From a virus, in IMG/VR virus record IMGVR_UViG_3300017987_000183, positions 1-39,372 of that record: 39,372 nucleotides of DNA; one strand, written 5' to 3'. The first letter of the stretch is position 1, and each line of letters starts with the position of its first letter. The position numbers and the translations under genes are program-made. The notes beneath the pieces are model-generated. The model did no database searches. It had not been told where the DNA came from and saw nothing but the letters and a program-made list of their open reading frames with translations. Positions 6,393-30,492 of this stretch are shown piece by piece.

Positions 6393-6561
6393 CGTGTATC
6401 CGGTGAGCAGCGTCCAGCCGGGTACTTCAACGGACACCCGGCAGGCTTCGCCCACCGACGCAATTCTACGTCGGGCGAGACGGCGCGCACACGCGTGAAA
6501 TCGCGCGTAGGCTGTCGACCTGTCCCAAAACATCCGTTTTTGTACGAGAAAAGTGCCTGAA

Positions 6562-6581
6562 AACTTTTTTCCAAAAAAGTT
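6562..6581. repeat. 9-bp perfect inverted repeat upstream of the rightward promoter
   Basis: AACTTTTTT and AAAAAAGTT flank a CC centre and lie 10 bp upstream of the -35 hexamer. The arms are pure A/T tracts, so the site could be an UP element for RNA polymerase, a bent operator, or a bidirectional hairpin. It lies between the divergent head and early operons, where a switch site would be expected. Confidence 0.55.
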
Positions 6582-6591
6582 CCAATTTCGC

Positions 6592-6620
6592 TTTACAAGT
6601 TTTCCTTGTAGGCGTATAAT
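6592..6620 (+). promoter_or_regulatory. Strong sigma70-type promoter of the rightward operon
   Basis: TTTACA (6592-6597) and TATAAT (6615-6620) are separated by exactly 17 bp and preceded by the A/T-rich inverted repeat. The -10 is a perfect consensus and the -35 has one mismatch. Transcription would start near 6627 and enter the long leader before the first gene at 7418. It is the only near-consensus promoter I see in the window and probably drives early expression with host RNA polymerase. Confidence 0.8.
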
Positions 6621-6626
6621 ACCCGT

Positions 6627-7400
6627 ACAATGAGGGACAGGCTGACAAACAAAACCGGGTTCAAAAACGCGGTGAGTTTTGCCCGTCCCTCTTTCGTTGG
6701 CTGTTCTTTACCATACTCGAACACGGCACGCAGGATAAGTCGGCCGGACACCGCTCATGGCGTAAAGCGTCGCGGGAGCACCGGCGCAACACGGTCGTAA
6801 GTAGAGAGGCGCGCACCCGGCGTGATTACGACGCCGAGGAATAGACCGCCGGTTGTTTGACCGGTGTGGGCGCGACTGTGAGTTCCAAGACGGAACGCTC
6901 CTCAGTTCACCTCCGTGGATGAGCCACACGAGCATCGACAGGTTGGAAGTCTGACCGCTTCCTTCAGTGTGGTGACAGAAGCCATCCGGTTAGAGGTCGA
7001 GCAAACACGCGGACGGGTAAGTCGAAGTTGAAACTGACACTGACCCTACTGCCGGCAAATCCCTCACAAGGCTCAAGCGTCGGGGATTCGAGTGCAGCCA
7101 TTTCTGTGTACAGCCAAGCAACACATCGCACGACATCCGCGTGGATCGGCTCCAACAGCCGACTCCTACCATGCAAGACCGGAGTTACTTTTCACGGACG
7201 ACGACAGTGTCGGTAACGCGGTGAATCAAACTGGGCGTTGGAACGGTGACCCTGAAGACGGGCGACATGTTCGCTGGTCTTCCGATTGAAACGGGCACAC
7301 GAGAATCCGTCCGACTTTCACTTCCACAAGTTCGTTACCTCATAGTGCGTGCGTGCGCGTGAATCGCGCGAACGCTCACGTGCGCGAACGTTGAAACGCG
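6627..7400 (+). ncRNA. Long non-coding leader, candidate large structured RNA
   Basis: About 790 nt follow the promoter without a convincing gene: the short frames here lack ribosome sites and family features. The transcript begins with a hairpin (GAGGGAC at 6632-6638 with GTCCCTC at 6685-6691). Further perfect stems are CGGCG/CGCCG (6818-6836), CCGGT/ACCGG (6849-6864), GGAAG/CTTCC (6945-6962), AATCCC/GGGATT (7058-7088) and TCGGCT/AGCCGA (7146-7162). A two-step stem pairs GAAGAC with GTCTTC and GCGA with TCGC (7254-7282). Large ornate phage RNAs such as GOLLD and ROOL have this size, but I cannot match it to either. In GC-rich DNA some stems arise by chance, so this could also be a plain long 5' UTR. 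Confidence 0.45.
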
Positions 7401-7417
7401 CGAAGGAGCACAGTACA

Positions 7418-7687
7418 ATGACACTCGCAGAACTCAAGGAAATGATTGAAGATCTGGAGATACAGCACGGCGAAGACGTTCTGGACCTGGAAGTCTACGG
7501 GGAGTACGACTACGGGGACCACTGTCACACACGAGCGCTGGCGGAATTCCGTAGCGTGATACTCACGGTACCGGAGAAGTCTGGCTACAGCCGCAGCGGG
7601 GTTGCCCTGGCGCGGGAAGCGGAAGACAACCAGGCCGAGGGCCCAGGTGAAGACGTCGTGGTTGCCCTGACAAACGAATACGTGTAA
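7418..7687 (+). CDS. Acidic hypothetical protein, first gene of the early operon
   Basis: The ATG at 7418 is chosen over an upstream GTG-type start because AAGGAGCACAGT, the start-associated motif of this phage, lies just before it. The 89-residue acidic product opens with a helix (LAELKEMIEDLEIQHGED). The YGEYDYGDHCHTRALAEFRSVILTV part resembles many small phage proteins with a strand-rich core of the form LEV-x-DYGD. No function is known to me. The stop codon is immediately followed by the hammerhead element at 7688, so self-cleavage would free this message from the rest of the operon. Confidence 0.7.
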   Translation: MTLAELKEMIEDLEIQHGEDVLDLEVYGEYDYGDHCHTRALAEFRSVILTVPEKSGYSRSGVALAREAEDNQAEGPGEDVVVALTNEYV

Positions 7688-7753
7688 GCGCCGAAACCGG
7701 GCTACGTGCCCGGTAGTCACAGGTTGGCTACCTGTGGCCTGACGAGGTAAGCC
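7688..7753 (+). ncRNA. Type II hammerhead ribozyme (copy A, intact core)
   Basis: All parts appear in the order of a hammerhead opened at stem II. These are the stem II 3' strand GCGCC (7688-7692), GAAA (7693-7696), and stem III A-CCGGGC (7696-7702) with GCCCGG-U (7708-7714) around loop TACGT. A7715 is the cleavage nucleotide (GUA), with the cut expected after it. Stem I pairs GTCACAGGT (7716-7724) with ACCTGTGGC (7730-7738), followed by the core CTGACGA (7739-7745). The stem II 5' strand GGTAAGC (7746-7752) pairs as G-C, G-C, U-G, AA bulge, G-C, C-G. A15.1-U16.1 and C15.2-G16.2 are canonical. It starts one base after a stop codon and ends just before the next ribosome site, so it would cut between cistrons. 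Confidence 0.85.
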
Positions 7754-7758
7754 AAAAG

Positions 7759-7771
7759 AAAGGAGCACAGT
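7759..7771 (+). promoter_or_regulatory. Start-associated motif AAAGGAGCACAGT
   Basis: This 13-nt site holds the Shine-Dalgarno core plus a conserved CACAGT that cannot pair with 16S rRNA. The same string, with at most one or two changes, precedes starts at 7403, 8224, 9524, 10912, 11726, 11994 and 16590. Looser forms lie at 10353, 13509, 14877 and 21382. It resembles in principle the start-associated sequences of cluster K mycobacteriophages. Confidence 0.75.
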
Positions 7772-7774
7772 AAG

Positions 7775-8209
7775 ATGAAGGTAGTAAAGCGACGGCTGAT
7801 GCACAATACAGGTAGTGAAGGACCACGTCACGACCCATACGCGTTCGAAGAGTTCACGCTCTTGGAACAGGAGGAAGGGCGAGAGCCGAGGAGGGTGACA
7901 ATCCATCTTGGTCTCGCGGAGTGGGTGAAGCTGAACGGTCGCGTCGAAGCGGATATCACAGGCTACGGTCTGAACGGAACTGGTTCGGTGGAAGACAAGT
8001 TTGAGGAACTGACCGGGCTCACCTTCCGTGGTGCTGTGAGGCTGTATCACCGCGCCAACAGGCTCGAGAAGATATGCCCGAAGTGTGGCGCCGGTATCGG
8101 GAAGGCACGGTGGTGTGACGGTTACCCGGGCGAAAGTTTTTTGGTGTGCCGTCCGAGCGAGTGCGGTTACATGTACACGAGTTCGTTCAACGAGTCGGCG
8201 ATCATCTGA
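7775..8209 (+). CDS. Hypothetical protein with C-terminal zinc ribbon
   Basis: This 144-residue protein starts with ATG behind the start-associated motif and directly downstream of the hammerhead element. The first 100 residues are mixed and unrecognised. The end holds CPKCGAGIGKARWCDG and FLVCRPSECGY, consistent with a four-Cys zinc ribbon of the CxxC...CxxxxC type. Early phage proteins with such ribbons often bind host transcription or replication proteins or nucleic acids, but nothing here says which. Confidence 0.75.
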   Translation: MKVVKRRLMHNTGSEGPRHDPYAFEEFTLLEQEEGREPRRVTIHLGLAEWVKLNGRVEADITGYGLNGTGSVEDKFEELTGLTFRGAVRLYHRANRLEKICPKCGAGIGKARWCDGYPGESFLVCRPSECGYMYTSSFNESAII

Positions 8210-8235
8210 AGTGATACAGACAGAAAGGAGCACAG

Positions 8236-8355
8236 GTGAAAGCAGCGGCGACGGCGAACGGGCGCTTGTATCTCTGGCGCTTGGTGTCGCACAATGACTG
8301 GAAGGTTGTGCTGGACGCGGCGTACAGGGAGCTGACAACGAGGAGGACGAAGTGA
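8236..8355 (+). CDS. Very small hypothetical protein (39 aa)
   Basis: The GTG at 8236 directly follows AAAGGAGCACAG; the frame runs 39 codons to a TGA that overlaps the next ATG as TGATG. The product (VKAAATANGRLYLWRLV...) is basic and aromatic in the middle. The start motif and coupled stop make it a likely real gene despite its size. No function is recognised. Confidence 0.6.
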   Translation: MKAAATANGRLYLWRLVSHNDWKVVLDAAYRELTTRRTK

Positions 8356-8534
8356 TGGACGCAATACTCAAGCAGATCGCAGAAGAGCACGGCTTGCGGA
8401 AGGACGAACTTACGCGGGTGGTGCGCTACTACACCGGGACACAGACGTGCCAGGACTACGACAACCTGAGCGAAGTTGAACAGGCTACTGTGAACGCGAC
8501 GGATAAGGCAATCCGCAAACAGGAGACAGAGTGA
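8355..8534 (+). CDS. Small acidic hypothetical protein (59 aa)
   Basis: The ATG at 8355 overlaps the previous stop and follows AGGAGGACGAAG, a good ribosome site. The product (MDAILKQIAEEHGLRKDEL...) is predicted all-helical, with a HGLRKDELTRVVRYY segment that could form a small helix-turn-helix, though the match is weak. It ends in TGATG coupling with the next gene. Confidence 0.6.
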   Translation: MDAILKQIAEEHGLRKDELTRVVRYYTGTQTCQDYDNLSEVEQATVNATDKAIRKQETE

Positions 8535-8794
8535 TGGCAAGGTATTTCACAATCACGATCGACGAGGCGGGATTCAAGCGGCTGTCGAACATGGTTCGCA
8601 GTTACCACAAGTCGGCAGTCCACATCGTGGAGCATGGGCCCGGCTGCGGTGGCGATGTTTCGACGGACGAGGAAAACGAGGAGCGTGTGAAGATCGCGAC
8701 GGCGATGAAGGAAGCGATCGAAGACGCGGCTGAGATCACGGAGAAGCAGTGGAACGAGCTCAACGACGACGCGCTGGCGCGGAGGTATGAATAA
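8534..8794 (+). CDS. Small hypothetical protein (86 aa)
   Basis: The ATG at 8534 overlaps the previous TGA and has AGGAG upstream. The protein starts with a strand (ARYFTITIDEAGFKRL) and continues as charged helices (EENEERVKIATAMKEAIEDAAEI). There is no recognised family. The stop TAA shares one base with the next ATG. Confidence 0.6.
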   Translation: MARYFTITIDEAGFKRLSNMVRSYHKSAVHIVEHGPGCGGDVSTDEENEERVKIATAMKEAIEDAAEITEKQWNELNDDALARRYE

Positions 8795-9093
8795 TGACGA
8801 TTCAACAGGCAGCGAAAGACATGGAGGACAGGATGACGGCGGAACTGGAATCCCGAGTCCACACTGGTGATCCGCTTCCCAAGCCGAAGAAAGCGCGACC
8901 GACGCGGAACAGTCGCAAGGCTCGGCTCGTCGTGGAGAACACCAATCGCGGTGACGGTTCCACGATCGAACTCGCGTCGTTCAACTTGAAGGGCGACGCA
9001 AACCTTGCGGCTCAGGCGATGGCGAACTACACGAAGCGCACTCACGGTGTGCTGCACAAGGGTTCGCTGACGTGGTGGACACCGCAAGCGTAA
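8794..9093 (+). CDS. Small hypothetical protein (99 aa)
   Basis: The gene starts at 8794 in a TAATG overlap, with GGAGG about 9 nt upstream. The N-terminal helix is followed by a basic Pro/Lys linker (PLPKPKKARPTRNSRKAR) and a strand-helix-strand part (IELASFNLKGDANLAAQAMANY...GVLHKGSLTWW). The basic linker hints at nucleic-acid contact. No family is recognised. Confidence 0.6.
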   Translation: MTIQQAAKDMEDRMTAELESRVHTGDPLPKPKKARPTRNSRKARLVVENTNRGDGSTIELASFNLKGDANLAAQAMANYTKRTHGVLHKGSLTWWTPQA

Positions 9094-9106
9094 TGCCGAA
9101 TATCTG

Positions 9107-9538
9107 ATGCAGACGTTCCTGCCTTACGCGGACTATAACAAAAGCGCTGCCGTTCTCGACCGCGCACGACTAGGTAAGCAGCGGGTGGAAGTGCTCCAAT
9201 TGGTGCGCGTCCTAGCTGGCGTGACTACCGGTTGGAGTAACCACCCGGCTGCGCTCATGTGGTCTGGACATGAGGCAGCGCTTATCCAATACGGTTTGTG
9301 CGTGTGTTGCGAGTGGCGGGTGCGTGGCTATACGGACAACGTAACTGAAAGGTTGGAGTTCTGGCGGATGGAGTACACTGGCAGAGCGGTCAAGCCAGTG
9401 TGGTTTGGTGGTAGACGGTTCCACGTTGCGCACAGGTCAAACCTGCTGCGAAAGAACCCGGCTCACTACCGCAAGTATTGGCCGCGTTTGAGAGACGACC
9501 TGCCATACGTTTGGCCGGTCAGGAAAGGAGCACAGTAG
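9107..9538 (+). CDS. Pyrimidine-dimer-glycosylase-like protein (Pyr_excise / MSMEG_6728 type)
   Basis: The opening MQTFLPYADYNKSAAVLDRARLGKQR, followed by GWSNHPAALMWSGHEAALIQYGL and ending HRSNLLRKNPAHYRKYWP...DDLPYVWPV, is the pattern of MSMEG_6728-type proteins. These are related to T4 endonuclease V, the Pyr_excise family that removes UV dimers. The LGKQR-V-E helix and the RSNLLRK motif are the most typical parts. The 143-residue length is normal. No strong ribosome site precedes the ATG. The family is usually free-standing, and in a phage it would protect or repair DNA, though glycosylase activity of this branch is inferred, not known to me. Confidence 0.8.
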   Translation: MQTFLPYADYNKSAAVLDRARLGKQRVEVLQLVRVLAGVTTGWSNHPAALMWSGHEAALIQYGLCVCCEWRVRGYTDNVTERLEFWRMEYTGRAVKPVWFGGRRFHVAHRSNLLRKNPAHYRKYWPRLRDDLPYVWPVRKGAQ

Positions 9539-9539
9539 A

Positions 9540-10280
9540 ATGAGTGACACGAGAGACAACTGGGTAACCGTGGACAACGTAAAGGTCGGGGACAAAGTAG
9601 TTATACGGACTACGGGTAGTACCGGTGAAGATATCGCCGTTACGCACGTGACCAAAGTGACGAAGACGCAGGTGGTAGTGCGTCGTCCGGGTCAGCAGGA
9701 TGCCACCATCCGCTACAAGACACCGAGGTATGGGGACGCTATGGACGTGGTCGGAGAGCGGTCGTCGCGGTTCGCTCGCAGAGCCGGACCGTATGAGTAC
9801 ACGACACTGCGGCTGGCTGATAAGGGCGAGAGCCTGAAGAAGACAGCAGAGACCATAGGGAAGCGTGAAGCTGAGCGCAAGGCAGAGCGAGACGCGGAGC
9901 GCAAGGCAAAGGAAGAGGAACAGGAAAAGGCAGCGGCTGAGCGTCGCAAGAAGATGGAAGCGTTCTACGAGTATCAGGGCAAGGAGTTGCTTGAGAGCGC
10001 ACCGGAAGTTGACACGTTCATCGGCAAAGTCAAGGTACTCACGTTCCACAGTCCACGTTCCAATGAAAGTGTGACCATGTTCGTGAAGATCTGGAAGGAG
10101 AAAGACGAGTGGGACTTTGAGGCTCACAAGAACGGGACGGAACCGCGCAAGTTGACGCACGTGCTCGCGTGTGGCTTCAGAGCGTACGAGAGTTCGGGTG
10201 GGTGCCGAGCCTCTTCCACTAGCTGGAGTGAGAGTAAGCACAAGGACATCGTCGAAGCCGTCTACAACATCGTTCACTAG
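9540..10280 (+). CDS. Hypothetical protein with SH3-like N-terminus and charged coiled coil
   Basis: ATG at 9540 follows AAAGGAGCACAGT. Residues 8-50 look like a small beta barrel (WVTVDNVKVGDKVVIRTT then TKVTKTQVVVRRPG), of the kind seen in KOW/SH3-like nucleic-acid or protein binders. Residues 95-140 are a long charged helix of repeated ER/KAER units, a likely coiled coil or single alpha helix. The C-terminal 100 residues are mixed. The stop is followed within 2 nt by the second hammerhead element. Confidence 0.7.
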   Translation: MSDTRDNWVTVDNVKVGDKVVIRTTGSTGEDIAVTHVTKVTKTQVVVRRPGQQDATIRYKTPRYGDAMDVVGERSSRFARRAGPYEYTTLRLADKGESLKKTAETIGKREAERKAERDAERKAKEEEQEKAAAERRKKMEAFYEYQGKELLESAPEVDTFIGKVKVLTFHSPRSNESVTMFVKIWKEKDEWDFEAHKNGTEPRKLTHVLACGFRAYESSGGCRASSTSWSESKHKDIVEAVYNIVH

Positions 10281-10282
10281 AA

Positions 10283-10342
10283 GCCGAAACCGGGCTGCGT
10301 GCCCGGTCGGCGTGGTATGGCAGACCACGTCCCGAAGAAGGC
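10283..10342 (+). ncRNA. Type II hammerhead-like element (copy B, altered core)
   Basis: The layout matches the 7688 element: GCC (10283-10285), GAAA, stem III A-CCGGGC (10289-10295) with GCCCGG-U (10301-10307), and C10308 as a canonical GUC cleavage site. Stem I pairs GGCGTGGT (10309-10316) with ACCACGTC (10324-10331), and GGC (10340-10342) pairs with GCC. Stem I differs in sequence from copy A but pairs fully, and both copies have a G-U pair at the second position. The core reads CCGAAGA plus an extra A instead of CUGANGA, so U4 is C and one base is inserted; activity may be low or lost. It lies between a stop codon and the next ribosome site, as copy A does. Confidence 0.65.
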
Positions 10343-10367
10343 AGGCCAAAGTAAAGGAGGACAGGCC

Positions 10368-10700
10368 ATGACTAAGGAAGAAGCAGGGCGCAAGGCTAGG
10401 GAGATCATCAACGCGGTGGAGACTGCGTGTGGCGAAGTAGCGATGGAGGCAGTGGAGGGCACGAACTTCGGCGAGTTCGACATCCCCGACTGTGGTGACC
10501 CTTCCGGCGCACTCGCCGACAACCTGTACAACGACACCGGGTTCCTGGAGGACATGATCGGTGACCGCGTCTATGATGCGGCGAACTCCAGCGAGGAACG
10601 CGGTCAGGTACTGGATGCACTGGAAGAGCGTGGGCACAGTGGAATACAGGTCGCTTGCCAGAACATACGCGGTCGGCACCCGGAATGGAAGGCAGAGTAA
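10368..10700 (+). CDS. Acidic hypothetical protein (110 aa)
   Basis: The ATG at 10368 follows AAAGGAGGACAGGCC; an earlier in-frame start at 10299 would fall inside the hammerhead-like element and is rejected. The protein is acidic, begins with helices (KEEAGRKAREIINAVETACGEVAMEAVEG) and has a GDPSGALADNLYNDTGFLEDMIGDRVYDAA middle. No family is recognised. Confidence 0.65.
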   Translation: MTKEEAGRKAREIINAVETACGEVAMEAVEGTNFGEFDIPDCGDPSGALADNLYNDTGFLEDMIGDRVYDAANSSEERGQVLDALEERGHSGIQVACQNIRGRHPEWKAE

Positions 10701-10701
10701 C

Positions 10702-10911
10702 ATGATCCCCAAAAGCACAGCGTACAAGTTGGTTATCATGAAATCCCTGCCCGGCACTAAGGTTAATGCCGGCAAGAGCGAGTGGGAGATCATTGGTGAG
10801 GGCAACAAAGCTGACATGAGAAGGAGGGCAAAGTCTATCAGGAGGGACGGGTACAACGCACAGGTGATGGTCTCCCACCGGCTGAAGGTAGGGGATGTCA
10901 TCCAGATGTAG
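10702..10911 (+). CDS. Small basic hypothetical protein (69 aa)
   Basis: The ATG at 10702 lies 1 nt after the preceding stop with GGAAGG upstream. The product (MIPKSTAYKLVIMKSLPG...) is basic with alternating strands and one Arg-rich helix (KADMRRRAKSIRRDGYNAQVMVSHRL). A small single-domain nucleic-acid binder is possible. No family is recognised. Confidence 0.55.
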   Translation: MIPKSTAYKLVIMKSLPGTKVNAGKSEWEIIGEGNKADMRRRAKSIRRDGYNAQVMVSHRLKVGDVIQM

Positions 10912-10928
10912 GAAGGAGCACAGCACAA

Positions 10929-11723
10929 GTGACAAAGCCATCCGAGAGAATAATCAGCCGCATCCGTAAGTTACTAGCGTTAGCCTCGTCTCCTAATGAG
11001 CACGAGGCTGCGCTGGCCGCGTCACGGGCACAGGAGTTCTTGGACAAGTACAACCTGGATATGGCTACGGTCAAGGACTTCGGTGATCCCGACGAACAGA
11101 AGAAAGCCAAGAAGATCAAAAAGCAGGAGGAGGGGGAGTCTCCTCTTGTCAAGAAGAGCATAAGGCAACACGACATCTCGCTGTGGTGTGGTCTTGCTCG
11201 TGTCTTCGATTGCGTTGGCTTCATCCACACCGACAAGAAGTTCATCGGATACACTACACGCGGCAGACCCAAGTACGCAAAGACTCAGTCGCTGTTGGCT
11301 GTTGGTCATGCACTGGATGTGGAAGTGCTGACCTACACCTACACGTACTTGCGAAAGGCGATGTTCGATATCTTCTGGGAGGACGTGAAGAATCAGAAGG
11401 ATCACTGGAAGTCGTTGAACTCGGCAAGCCGATACAACTACCGCTGGAACTTCTTTCTTGGCTGTGCTCACCGGCTGGTTGAGCGCGTAGAGGAACAGCG
11501 TTCACTGCGTCTGGCCGATGATAATAAGTGCACCGCGTTGGTGGTACAGCGGAAGGAGGCAGTGACCCAGTGGGTAAAGGAGAACATGCGGCTGAAGTAT
11601 GGCCCAAGCCATATGCCGAAAGGCAATTACAATGCGGCAGTCCGTGGAAGAGCAGCCGGCAATCGCATTGCGTTGCGCGATGGATTGAAGGGAAGCTCGA
11701 AGAAGGTGAAGCAAATTCGGTGA
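10929..11723 (+). CDS. DUF2786-domain phage protein
   Basis: The GTG at 10929 is preceded by GAAGGAGCACAGC. Residues 6-45 (ERIISRIRKLLALASSPNEHEAALAASRAQEFLDKYNLD) are a clear DUF2786 domain, a short helical unit common in phages and actinobacteria. Its function is unsettled; links to nucleic-acid processing have been suggested. A charged linker (residues 52-75) leads to an aromatic-rich helical part resembling the DUF7168-type extension usually found after DUF2786. The tail is basic (GSSKKVKQIR). Length (264 residues) is typical. Confidence 0.8.
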   Translation: MTKPSERIISRIRKLLALASSPNEHEAALAASRAQEFLDKYNLDMATVKDFGDPDEQKKAKKIKKQEEGESPLVKKSIRQHDISLWCGLARVFDCVGFIHTDKKFIGYTTRGRPKYAKTQSLLAVGHALDVEVLTYTYTYLRKAMFDIFWEDVKNQKDHWKSLNSASRYNYRWNFFLGCAHRLVERVEEQRSLRLADDNKCTALVVQRKEAVTQWVKENMRLKYGPSHMPKGNYNAAVRGRAAGNRIALRDGLKGSSKKVKQIR

Positions 11724-11739
11724 AGAAAGGAGCACAGTG

Positions 11740-12015
11740 ATGGACGCAGTTTACAAAGCCAAAGCCAAGCTGATACTCGGAGCGATTACCGACGTCATAC
11801 TGGAGACGGTCAACGAAGCCGACCCGATGATAGGTGCGCCGTGCGGTCACATCTACGCGGCGCTCGCGTCATTCGGAATTCGTCTGGACCAGTATCAGGC
11901 GATAGAGTCGGCACTCATCAAGACGGGACAGGTGGTCAAGCGGAACCACTGTCTGTTCCCGGCCAAGCGTCGGTCAGTTCGCACGAAGCACGCAAAGGAG
12001 CACAGCGATGCCTAG
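11740..12015 (+). CDS. Small hypothetical protein (91 aa)
   Basis: GTG 11737 and ATG 11740 are both possible; ATG is chosen because AAAGGAGCACAGT ends one base before it. The protein is helical (YKAKAKLILGAITDVILETV) with a GHIYAALASFGIRLDQYQAIESALIKTGQVVKRNHCLFP part that could be a small winged-helix-like domain. The last codons overlap the start-associated motif and the start of the next gene. Confidence 0.65.
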   Translation: MDAVYKAKAKLILGAITDVILETVNEADPMIGAPCGHIYAALASFGIRLDQYQAIESALIKTGQVVKRNHCLFPAKRRSVRTKHAKEHSDA

Positions 12016-12685
12016 GACAAAGCACAAGACAGCGAAGAAGACGGCGAAGCGCACAGTGCACAAGAAGTCGGTACGGAAGACGCACAATGCGCACATACCA
12101 GACGATGGCGGTTCCATGCCTGATTATCGGGTTGGCTCCGTACTGGGAAAGCCGGGTTGCTCCCGGGAAGTGGTTATCGCTAACATCATGCCCACCTACC
12201 TGTGGCCGGAGCAGAATGTTACGGTCGCTGCAATGGACACCGGGCGGACGGCGAAAACGACGCTGAAGGAACTGTGGTTCCTGGGCTACACGGTTGTCAG
12301 GGAGATGGACAAGGATTCCGTGAGTGGGCTGCTGGACGGCAAGAAAGTGGGACTCAGGAAGAAGGTACGACCGGGTGAGGACAAGGTAAAGCCGGGTTGG
12401 TGCCGGGACGGTAAGCGGGTATCCATCAACAATGCCGAGATACTGGAGGGCGAGAATCCAAACCTTCGCGGCGTAAAGGTCGCGATGAAGCGCAACAAAG
12501 TGGTGGGACTGAAGGCAGTGTGTCCGGAGTGCGGCCGCGTCTGCGACGTGTTCTGGCGCAAGAACCGGCAGGGTTACTTCCTTCAACAACACAAGCGAAA
12601 GGAGAACGGTAAAGCGGAGCGGAAGGTGAAGCGAACCAAGAGTGTGAGGAAGTCGAAGAGGACGAAGTCCAGGAGGACACGGTGA
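12008..12685 (+). CDS. Basic protein with zinc knuckle, MPRTKH start
   Basis: This 225-residue protein has Lys/Arg-rich ends (residues 1-30 and 195-225) around a central domain. The core has strand-rich segments (WPEQNVTVAAMDTGRTAKTTLKELWFLGYTVVREM) and a short CPECGRVC knuckle near residue 173 that could bind zinc. It starts MPRTKHKTA. The basic tails suggest binding to DNA or RNA, or packaging inside a particle. ATG 12008 has AAAGGAGCACAGC immediately upstream and overlaps the previous gene by 8 nt. Confidence 0.7.
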   Translation: MPRTKHKTAKKTAKRTVHKKSVRKTHNAHIPDDGGSMPDYRVGSVLGKPGCSREVVIANIMPTYLWPEQNVTVAAMDTGRTAKTTLKELWFLGYTVVREMDKDSVSGLLDGKKVGLRKKVRPGEDKVKPGWCRDGKRVSINNAEILEGENPNLRGVKVAMKRNKVVGLKAVCPECGRVCDVFWRKNRQGYFLQQHKRKENGKAERKVKRTKSVRKSKRTKSRRTR

Positions 12686-27036: not shown

Positions 27037-27884
27037 ATGCAAACACCATACAGATATTCATCAACTCGTCGCGCCGGGCAGACCGCGTGGTAACTCTTGA
27101 ACAGTTACCGCGCAACTGGCGACGCTCTACGGCAGTTGTCGTTCCACGTAACGAGGCACGCGACTACTACGCGACGTGCAAGGGATGGGATGTCGTTGCT
27201 ATGCCAGCGGACGTGCCACCGTATGTATCTTCACAGCGACACTGGGTGATGCAGACGGCGCGGGTGCCCTTCGTGTTCATCATGGATGATGACTTGGTGT
27301 TCAAGACACGCGGTGCAGACGGTAAGCTGAGGAACTCCACGCACGAAGACATGTCACGTATGCTATCGCTGGTTGCGCGGTTTACACGCAAGAAGAACGT
27401 CGGAGCTATCGGCATTAGCCACACGTTCGTCAACGGATTGAGCAAGGACAAGGACGTGCTGTCACCCGGCGCGATAGGCTCATGCTTTGTGCTCAATCGT
27501 GAAGCCTACGTACGCGAGGGTTGCGTAATGAGCGACTTCGAACCTTGGCTGCTGCATCAGCATTACATTAACATCCAACTACTCTCCAAGGGATACGATA
27601 CCTACGTGTTGATGGCTCACGCATTTGATCAGACCATCAACGTAACCGGTGGTGTCTCGCGTTACAGGACACCGGCGCTGCTGGAGAAGGTATGCCAGTA
27701 TCTGGCTGACAAGTATCCGGACTACGTCACCGTCACGGAGAAGACCAACAATCCAAGCGCATGGCCGGGATTCCCGGTAGCGGAGGACGGTAAGGTTCAC
27801 GTAGCAAACATCAAAGTCGCGTGGAAGAAGCTAGCGGAACACGGTAAACGGCAACGTCATAAGGGTATACGGGAGTTCGTATGA
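27033..27884 (+). CDS. TET-associated-type glycosyltransferase (GT-A fold)
   Basis: This 283-residue protein begins with a GT-A strand (TIQIFINSSRRADRV). It goes on with AVVVPRNEARDYYA and reaches FVFIMDDDLVFKTRG near residue 85, the DDD metal/UDP-sugar site. The later GSCFVLNREAY and DFEPWLLHQHYINIQLLSKGY recall the acceptor side. This layout fits the TAGT family known from phages with TET/JBP-type base oxidation, where it adds sugars to hydroxymethylpyrimidines. No TET gene is in this window. It ends KRQRHKGIREFV, a tag shared with the radical-SAM protein just upstream. It is coupled by ATGA to both neighbours. Confidence 0.7.
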   Translation: MNANTIQIFINSSRRADRVVTLEQLPRNWRRSTAVVVPRNEARDYYATCKGWDVVAMPADVPPYVSSQRHWVMQTARVPFVFIMDDDLVFKTRGADGKLRNSTHEDMSRMLSLVARFTRKKNVGAIGISHTFVNGLSKDKDVLSPGAIGSCFVLNREAYVREGCVMSDFEPWLLHQHYINIQLLSKGYDTYVLMAHAFDQTINVTGGVSRYRTPALLEKVCQYLADKYPDYVTVTEKTNNPSAWPGFPVAEDGKVHVANIKVAWKKLAEHGKRQRHKGIREFV

Positions 27885-29116
27885 CCAACACGCAGTTCTT
27901 CTTTTGGCCGGAAAAGAACACCACGGCATCGCCACGGCATCGCAACACCAACCGGCGCAAGAAGCTATGCCGGGTAGACTGCAAGCTGTTCCGTACATGC
28001 GAGTCACCAAACATGAAACCATCCGGCGAAGGCAAGCGCAAGGTGCTGGTGATTGCGGAGGCTCCCGGTCGCGTGGAGGACGAGCGTGGTGTTCAACTTG
28101 TAGGCAAGAGCGGCAGGCTTGTCCGTAGGGAGATGCGTTCGATTGGGTTTGACTTGGATCGCGACTGCATCAAACTGAACGCGATAAACTGTCGTCCGCC
28201 AGACAACCGCAAGCCAACGCGGGTGGAACTGGAGGCTTGCCGGCCACATACGTGGAAGGTAATCAATGAATTCCAGCCGCACGTCATCCTACTGTTTGGT
28301 GGGATCGCCGTGGATTGCTTCCTGGGTCACAGATGGAAGCGTAATCTGCGAGGTATCAGCCGCTGGCGTGGATGGCATATCCCGGACAGGGAAGTCAACG
28401 CATGGGTATGTCCGCTATTTCACCCGGCTTACATCATTCGCAGTAGCAGTCCACCGGGTGCCGCCACGATATTCAGCCATGACTTGGAGCGTGCTCTCAA
28501 GTTGGTGGACAAACCACTGCCGACATGGGAGGACGAGCGTGAATGCGTGAGGATTATCCGTGACGAAGACCGGGTTGTCCGCTTCCTAACGTGGCTCGTG
28601 GACAAGAGACGGCCGAAGGTTATCGCGTTTGACTATGAGACAACCGGGCTGAAGCCGCACAGGGATGGGCACAGGATCGTGAGTGCGTCTGTAGCATACT
28701 CGAAAACGAAAGCCGTAGCCTTTCCTATGACCCACGCTGTCGAGAGTGCCTTCGTCCGCCTGCTTCGCGACAGGCATATCAAGAAGATTGCACAGAACCT
28801 GAAGTTTGAGGAAGCGTGGAGCCGGGTCTGTCTCGGGACGAGAGTACGTGGATGGGTATGGGATTCAATGGTAGCTTCTCATGTACTGGACAACCGGTCT
28901 GGTATCACAGGACTCAAGTTTCAAGCCTACGTTCAGTTCGGTATACTGGACTACTCCAGCCATATCGAGCCATACTTGGAAAGCCGAGGACCGGGTGGTG
29001 CGAACGCTTTCAATCGCATAGACAAAGTGGATATGGATGAGTTACTTCTCTACAATGGCATGGACTCGTTGCTTGAGTATCGACTTGCTATGAAACAGCG
29101 AAAGGTTCTTCAATGA
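27881..29116 (+). CDS. Uracil-DNA glycosylase fused to 3'-5' exonuclease
   Basis: Two domains lie in one chain. Residues 25-205 are a family 4/5-type UDG. It has cluster-type cysteines (KKLCRVDCKLFRTC and EACRP), the active-site motif VIAEAPGRVEDERG, NAINCRPPDNRKPT, and FHPAYIIR. Residues 240-405 are a DnaQ-like proofreading exonuclease with FDYETTGL (Exo I), KKIAQNLKFEEAW (Exo II) and YNGMDSLLEYRL (Exo III). The polymerase domain that normally follows such an exonuclease is on the next gene (ATGA overlap). A replisome-linked UDG would remove misplaced or deaminated bases at the fork, or could police a modified genome. The 411-residue length fits two complete domains. Confidence 0.88.
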   Translation: MTNTQFFFWPEKNTTASPRHRNTNRRKKLCRVDCKLFRTCESPNMKPSGEGKRKVLVIAEAPGRVEDERGVQLVGKSGRLVRREMRSIGFDLDRDCIKLNAINCRPPDNRKPTRVELEACRPHTWKVINEFQPHVILLFGGIAVDCFLGHRWKRNLRGISRWRGWHIPDREVNAWVCPLFHPAYIIRSSSPPGAATIFSHDLERALKLVDKPLPTWEDERECVRIIRDEDRVVRFLTWLVDKRRPKVIAFDYETTGLKPHRDGHRIVSASVAYSKTKAVAFPMTHAVESAFVRLLRDRHIKKIAQNLKFEEAWSRVCLGTRVRGWVWDSMVASHVLDNRSGITGLKFQAYVQFGILDYSSHIEPYLESRGPGGANAFNRIDKVDMDELLLYNGMDSLLEYRLAMKQRKVLQ

Positions 29117-30492
29117 TCAAAGCTACACGTAAGGACGCGTACAAGCTGCTGCACGACGGAGTAGTCACGCTAGCTGAAGTAGAAGCTACTGGTATCACAG
29201 TAGACGTGGACTTCGCCGAGCAACAGGTAGATGAGCTCAGCAACGCCATTACCGTGATGGAAGAACGTCTTGACCGTTGCTCGGAAGTCAAGCTGTGGCG
29301 CCGTCTCTATGGTGCACAGAAGTTCAAGTTAGCTAGTGACACGCAGCTGCGCCGGGTGCTGTTCACCGAACTGAAGCACGACTATGAACGAGAGACGGAG
29401 AGCGGATTGCCGAAGGTGGATGACGCGGCATTGTCTGCAATAGGCACGACGTTCACCAAGCGTTACTCGAAGTGGAAAAAACTTGTGAGTACGCGCACAC
29501 GACTGCAAGGCATATTGACAGAGACGATCAACGGTGTCATGCATCCCTTCTTCCAGTTACATACGGCGCGCACCTACCGTTCCAGTAGCGAGGATTACAA
29601 TTTCCAGAACATGGATCGCCGCAACTTGGAGAAAGCTGAACTCGTCCGGCGCTGCTTCATACCGCGTGTTCACAAGCGTAGTCGCAAGCGTGGACGTCTC
29701 GGTGAACTGGATTACTCCCGCTTGGAAGTGATGGTCTCCTGCTGCTACCACCACGACCCAGCGTTGATAGCTGATGTCACTGACCCGAAGCGTGACATGC
29801 ACAGAGACATGGCGGAAGAGTGTTACCTACTGAAGCGTGGACAGGTGAACAAACCAATACGTGACTGCTCCAAGAACAGTTTCGTGTTCCCGGAGTTCTA
29901 CGGAGACTACTTCCGCGACTGTGCAAAGAATCTGTGGAACGACATCACTAAGCGCGACTTGGTGACAACAGACGGTGTGCCGCTGATGGAACACTTACGG
30001 GACGAGGGTATCAAGACCTACAAGAAGTTTGAGAAGCACATCGAAGCTGTGGAGCACGACTTCTGGCACAAGCGTTACACGGTGTACAACAAATGGCGTG
30101 AGGACTTGTACAAGTTCTATCTGCGACACGGTTACGTGGATATGCTAACCGGCTTCCGTTGCTATGAACCTATGAAGCGCAACGAAGCGTGGAATCGGCC
30201 GATCCAAGGTAGCGCATTTCACTGTCTACTGTGGTCGTTGATTCAACTGAACCGCTGGCTGAAACGCGAGAAGATGGAGTCATGCATCATAGGACAGATA
30301 TACGACTCCATTGTCAACGACTACCAGCCGGATGAAGTAGGACTCGTGTTACAGCAGGCACAGCAAATCATGTGCGTGGATATACGCGAAGCGTGGAAGT
30401 GGATTATCGTGCCGCTGGAAGTGGAAGCTGAACTCGCGCCGGTTGGTGGTAGCTGGTTTGACATGGAGAAAGTGAGGATAGCCGATGCCTAG
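29113..30492 (+). CDS. Family A DNA polymerase, polymerase domain only
   Basis: Motif A is GELDYSRLEVMVSC near residue 200. Motif B is CSKNSFVFPEFYGDY near residue 255, a phage variant of K-x3-F-G-x2-YG. Motif C is GQIYDSIVND near residue 395, where the usual HDE is YDS. HTARTYRSSSEDYNFQNM is the conserved T-x-R-x-SS-x-x-N-xQN strand before motif A. There is no exonuclease in this chain; it lies on the preceding gene, so the enzyme is split into UDG-exonuclease and polymerase halves that must assemble. The 459-residue length is right for palm, fingers and thumb. Confidence 0.9.
   Translation: MIKATRKDAYKLLHDGVVTLAEVEATGITVDVDFAEQQVDELSNAITVMEERLDRCSEVKLWRRLYGAQKFKLASDTQLRRVLFTELKHDYERETESGLPKVDDAALSAIGTTFTKRYSKWKKLVSTRTRLQGILTETINGVMHPFFQLHTARTYRSSSEDYNFQNMDRRNLEKAELVRRCFIPRVHKRSRKRGRLGELDYSRLEVMVSCCYHHDPALIADVTDPKRDMHRDMAEECYLLKRGQVNKPIRDCSKNSFVFPEFYGDYFRDCAKNLWNDITKRDLVTTDGVPLMEHLRDEGIKTYKKFEKHIEAVEHDFWHKRYTVYNKWREDLYKFYLRHGYVDMLTGFRCYEPMKRNEAWNRPIQGSAFHCLLWSLIQLNRWLKREKMESCIIGQIYDSIVNDYQPDEVGLVLQQAQQIMCVDIREAWKWIIVPLEVEAELAPVGGSWFDMEKVRIADA

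Follow-up and report, generated by a model that had tools for sequence, protein, structure and literature searches.

What does a self-cleaving RNA do in the short gap between two genes of a phage operon? Type II hammerhead ribozymes are known from bacteria and phages, and their function is unsettled (Perreault 2011, PMC3088659; De la Pena 2017, PMC6155905), as an initial annotation of the DNA studied here had also stated when it placed one such ribozyme between two early viral genes. We analyzed the whole 39,372-base virus record, which comes from an uncultured phage and is referred to here as the window, and all coordinates are window positions. Portal and terminase genes run leftward within 1 to 6.5 kb. 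From ∼7.4 kb, a long block of early and replication genes runs rightward (helicases, primase, polymerase, clamp loader, SSB, and recombinase). The terminase is closest to that of a Roseobacter phage, at about 41% identity. The early-operon elements that frame the ribozymes are the following:

6592 to 6620 (+): promoter-like TTTACA-17-TATAAT (11/12), 5′ of the early operon, a consensus match only
7418 to 7687 (+): first early gene, 89 aa, 5′ of copy 1, without a family match
7685 to 7687 (+): TAA stop codon of that gene, with G12 of copy 1 lying 5 nt later
7759 to 7767 (+): Shine-Dalgarno (SD)-like AAAGGAGCA of the gene after copy 1, with AAAGGAG at 7759 to 7765
7775 to 8209 (+): gene 3′ of copy 1 (ATG at 7775), 144 aa, without a family match
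9540 to 10280 (+): gene 5′ of copy 2, 246 aa, TAG stop at 10278 to 10280, weak PHROG matches of unknown function
10368 to 10700 (+): gene 3′ of copy 2, 110 aa, preceded by an SD-like TAAAGGAGG at 10352 to 10360

Many rightward genes have a stereotyped ribosome binding site (RBS) motif, (A)AGGAGCACAG, in front of them whether or not a ribozyme is present (positions 7405, 7762, 8227, 9527, 10915, 11729, 11997, and 16593). Between the two ribozymes, the early block encodes a pyrimidine dimer DNA glycosylase domain (PF03013; 9107 to 9538, + strand). Farther downstream, at 27881 to 30492 (+), the DNA polymerase is apparently split into two adjacent open reading frames (ORFs) that match consecutive parts of the phrog_17 profile (477 to 826 and 834 to 1235). 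Contigs nearly identical to the window end at position 6890 (L003) and restart at 11305 (L066); the ribozyme-bearing early region, 6891 to 11304, is absent from them, perhaps because it is variable and disrupts assembly. Protein searches with the neighboring genes found no relatives spanning the ribozyme region, an exact DNA pattern search with stem III returned 0 matches, and INPHARED held no related phage DNA for 6 to 13 kb of the window.

At the site reported by the initial annotation (7688 to 7753), a base-by-base check recovered the type II architecture that it had described, in which stem II is open and loops cap stems I and III. The GAAA, CUGACGA, and GUA elements are all present and fit the GAAA, CUGANGA, and NUH core of the RF02276 class. 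Stem lengths of nine pairs (stem I) and seven pairs (stem III) hold in register, and GUA at 7713 to 7715 places the cut after 7715, a position assigned from sequence. The motif likewise lies between a stop codon (7685 to 7687) and the next RBS (7759 to 7765, ATG 7775); its span, on the other hand, was drawn too short at the 3′ end, where the omitted pseudoknot strand reaches 7755. The parts of this first ribozyme (copy 1) are as follows:

7690 to 7755 (+): type II hammerhead ribozyme copy 1, pseudoknot included, from the RF02276 match, base-by-base register, and shuffles
7690 to 7692 (+): stem II strand GCC, pairing with GGU at 7746 to 7748 (3 bp, including a G-U pair)
7693 to 7696 (+): core GAAA (G12, A13, A14, and A15.1)
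7696 to 7714 (+): stem III hairpin, 7 bp, ACCGGGC (7696 to 7702) with GCCCGGU (7708 to 7714), loop UACGU
7713 to 7715 (+): GUA cleavage triplet, with A7715 as the last base before the predicted cut
7716 to 7738 (+): stem I hairpin, 9 bp, GUCACAGGU (7716 to 7724) with ACCUGUGGC (7730 to 7738), including one U-G pair, loop UGGCU
7724 to 7729 (+): pseudoknot strand 1, UUGGCU, pairing with 7750 to 7755
7739 to 7745 (+): core CUGACGA (C3 to A9)
7750 to 7755 (+): pseudoknot strand 2, AGCCAA

A search with the Rfam type II covariance model had been proposed as a check on copy 1. With cmscan, RF02276 (Hammerhead_II) matched at 7689 to 7757, although the score of 34.3 bits (E = 0.0022 over all Rfam families; 5.2e-7 in a single-family search) falls below the curated cut-off of 37 bits. 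The type I model, RF00163 (Hammerhead_1), gave no match in the window. Copy 1 has GUA in place of the usual GUC, and its tail linker has one base more than is typical. When the window was scanned with a structural descriptor that asked for 5 or more in stems I and III, 2 or more in stem II, and no more than 1 core mismatch, copy 1 was the sole site, and 4287 dinucleotide shuffles produced 32 weak matches, none with both stems at 7 or more. In its predicted minimum free energy (MFE) fold, stem II and some of the core are lost to a small competing hairpin, at an energy equal to that of the ribozyme fold (−29.9 versus −29.8 kcal/mol, computed without the pseudoknot).

The initial annotation was right about copy 1 but missed a second, higher-scoring ribozyme at 10283 to 10348. 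This copy 2 matches RF02276 with 42.2 bits (E = 1.9e-5; Rfam span, 10282 to 10350), above both the 37-bit cut-off and copy 1. Its stems I and III are again closed by loops and its stem II is open; GAAA and GUC fit the class core, whereas CCGAAGA (U4C) and an extra A deviate from it. All parts lie on the + strand:

10283 to 10348 (+): type II hammerhead copy 2, from RF02276 and base-by-base parsing
10283 to 10285 and 10340 to 10342 (+): stem II, 3 bp
10286 to 10289 (+): GAAA
10289 to 10295 and 10301 to 10307 (+): stem III, 7 bp
10308 (+): C, last base of the cleavage triplet GUC, predicted cut after it
10309 to 10316 and 10324 to 10331 (+): stem I, 8 bp
10318 to 10321 and 10345 to 10348 (+): pseudoknot UGGC with GCCA, 4 bp
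10332 to 10338 (+): core CCGAAGA (U4C)
10339 (+): extra A before stem II

Relative to copy 1, stem III of copy 2 is nearly identical, and 4 of the 8 stem I pairs are changed on both sides with pairing kept.

The pairing of loop I required a revision. According to the initial annotation, stem II carries an AA bulge that could make a loop contact, a structure that uses G7751 and C7752; these same bases also take part in the 6-bp pseudoknot that joins loop I to the 3′ tail. The AA-bulge form of stem II was rejected, as comparative evidence favors the loop-I/tail pseudoknot, and the "AA bulge" appears, from sequence comparison, better read as the junction of a 3-bp stem II and the 6-bp pseudoknot. 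Among 292 nonredundant relatives, loop and tail form a mean of 4.98 bp, versus 4.23 bp with permuted tails (standard deviation, 0.05; kinship among the relatives is ignored in this comparison). The paired strands vary in sequence (UUGGCU/AGCCAA, UCGCCU/AGGCGA, UAGCC/GGCUA, and UGGCC/GGCCA). In copy 1, the first pseudoknot pair, U7724-A7755, competes with stem I pair U7724-A7730. Both copies carry a loop-I/tail pseudoknot, which is typical of the class, if not universal. For one type II ribozyme, mutation and compensation established that this pseudoknot is required for fast cleavage, and a rate of >1.2 per min at 0.5 mM Mg2+ has been published for a type II ribozyme with such a pseudoknot (Perreault 2011, PMC3088659).

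In other respects, both window copies resemble the published RF02276 ribozymes, which share the open stem II, closed stems I and III, the same core, a very short stem II, the loop-I/tail pseudoknot, and occurrence in clusters flanking genes, in that case in prophages (PMC3088659). They differ from these in the GUA triplet and just-subthreshold score of copy 1 and in the U4C change and extra base before stem II of copy 2. The two departures of copy 2 raised the possibility of a decayed ribozyme, which we no longer prefer because the extra base and U4C occur together in intact viral ribozymes. Unrelated phages carry this combination as well, in ribozymes whose stems are intact. When viral sequences were scanned with U or C allowed at position 4, at least 116 sound, unique ribozymes with an extra base were found, with C4 in 8 of 116 among the matches listed, and bacterial genome contigs gave 7 more C4 matches whose stems all have 4 bp or more (at least 1 duplicates a viral match, and one, L545, is weak); these frequencies are shaped by the seeding of the scan and are not population rates. 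Two of the viral contigs, L365 and L420, have ribozymes that match copy 2 in the stem I/loop sequence GUGGUAUGGCAGACCAC, a CCGANGA core (U4C), and one extra base followed by GGCAGGCC; they differ from it in stem III and in the extra base, which is U rather than A, and they are different contigs. More broadly, the set L365 to L480 forms a large viral type II subgroup with one extra nucleotide, mostly U, between core residue A9 and stem II. The hammerhead of phage Bcep176 offers a further parallel, as it is natural, lies between phage genes, and carries a single core substitution (PMC3088659; PMC7151607), although the change there is A6C, with Mn2+ preferred over Mg2+ (PMC7151607), and in copy 2 it is at U4. 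In an infectious viroid ribozyme, U4C lowers cleavage in vitro, and infection is still supported. Judged by these sequences, copy 2 is probably a tolerated variant and not debris, and it may well cleave more slowly or in a way that depends on ions or pH.

Both ribozymes occupy the same slot. They lie on the same strand, flank a block of early genes, and presumably share one transcript. In each, 5 nt separate G12 from a stop codon (TAA, last base 7687, for copy 1; TAG, last base 10280, for copy 2), and the purine-rich SD of the following gene comes 3 to 4 nt after the ribozyme ends. The same placement prevails among relatives: 165 of 285 (58%) have the stop of an upstream ORF (at least 40 codons) 0 to 10 nt before G12. 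The corresponding figures are 3.6% for random positions on these contigs and 14 of 284 for the opposite strand. The usual distance from stop to G12 is 3 to 6 nt, and start codons mostly follow the pseudoknot by 13 to 30 nt.

In the sequences surveyed, the arrangement is common rather than rare. Many viral contigs carry several type II hammerheads, up to 14, and five of them (G123 [L224], G129 [L225], G106 [L138], G094 [L126], and G119 [L227]) have 8 to 14 each. Among cultured phages, Streptomyces phage Sentinel (MT701597; L364, 38000 to 50272) has about 10 copies. It is one of six Arquatrovirinae (Streptomyces) phages, with phiScoe1, Caelum, Issmi, Daudau, and Salutena (L567 to L571), whose early regions contain 51 above-threshold RF02276 matches, 5 to 11 per stretch. 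These phages share with the window the ribozyme class, the intergenic slot, and the presence of several copies per genome, but they are unrelated to it and carry 5 to 11 copies per stretch, versus 2. In the feature tables of the Streptomyces phage records examined, no ribozyme is annotated at the type II matches, and a literature search for Arquatrovirinae and ribozymes, with most subscription papers outside its reach, returned no paper. Among terminase relatives of the window, 1 of 50 contigs gave an RF02276 match (L068, 27.5 bits), which was treated as spurious, as GAAA is not at the right place.

Taken together, we consider it likely that both motifs are genuine type II hammerheads that cleave the early transcript into separate, end-protected mRNAs. 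Natural tandem clusters of the class cleave in vitro, and an Agrobacterium cluster also does so in E. coli (PMC3088659). In the proposed mechanism, the loop-I/tail pseudoknot would lock stems I and II next to each other, the arrangement seen in characterized type II ribozymes. Cleavage would be cotranscriptional, after 7715 in copy 1 and after 10308 in copy 2, and would yield an mRNA for the first gene, a segment of ∼2.6 kb (7716 to 10308), and the remainder; that copy 1 would cut the operon message, as first proposed, is soundly inferred. Each upstream mRNA would finish with the stem III hairpin, followed by a single base that bears a 2′,3′-cyclic phosphate. Each downstream mRNA would start with a 5′-OH base that is already part of a stem I base pair. 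Both new ends would be capped by hairpins because only in the type II topology are stems I and III both closed. A 5′-OH end should avoid 5′-monophosphate-dependent RNase E decay. The likely use would be to place neighboring genes on separate mRNAs with protected ends and independent stability, cut just before the next RBS.

The main rivals to this reading accept the ribozymes and dispute their use. The motifs could be hammerheads by descent that persist as neutral or decaying passengers of phage modules, cleaving without benefit, a reading we find unlikely. The changed core residue of copy 2, the subthreshold score of copy 1, and the restriction of ribozymes to two of the early intergenic gaps in the window are consistent with it, as are flanking genes that are not constant across the class (Perreault 2011, PMC3088659). 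Yet stem I and pseudoknot sequences change while pairing stays, placement is highly regular, and U4C with an extra base in unrelated phages with intact stems is unlike random decay. Slightly less probable again is a conditional switch, in which cleavage is gated by a metal ion, pH, or the ribosome terminating 5 nt upstream, so that mRNA cutting is tied to translation or ion state. Judging from the distances, a stop-to-G12 interval of 3 to 6 nt would put the core and the 5′ strand of stem III within the footprint of a terminating ribosome; the Mn2+ preference of the A6C phage variant (PMC7151607) and the core change in copy 2 also point this way. Compact phage genomes alone, however, predict short spacings, and no ligand domain is visible.

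Readings that deny cleavage fare worse. Passive hairpins serving mRNA stability or spacing are very improbable: stems I and III are indeed the most stable elements of the MFE folds, but such a role has no need of GAAA, CUGANGA, NUH, or a pseudoknot, features that copy 1 has in full and copy 2 nearly in full. That the motifs resemble hammerheads by chance, or are an intrinsic terminator, is scarcely credible. Each copy does contain two G+C-rich hairpins, but none of the shuffles was as good, and a single 39-kb record holds two copies in the same gene slot. The terminator in particular was rejected, as neither ribozyme site has a U-tract and no + strand terminator was called in 6500 to 12100.

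Beyond the window, a wider use of these ribozymes across phages can be put forward only tentatively, and we would not expect it to hold in full: type II hammerheads may punctuate phage early operons in general ("ribozyme punctuation") as a stop-to-RBS cassette with hairpin-capped products, in which U4C with an extra base would be a recurrent, selected variant with an altered rate or ion/pH response and not decay.

The class has been known since 2011 (Perreault 2011), and the role of hammerheads in phage operons has been open for as long; what is new here is two more members, which form a clear pair. Because the slot is regular, cultured phages carry multiple copies, and the core variant recurs, the question of function is now testable. 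With a near-fixed position after the stop codon and cultured phages that hold about ten copies, processing, mRNA stability, and fitness would be directly measurable, and the recurrent U4C variant turns tolerance of the hammerhead core into a testable claim.
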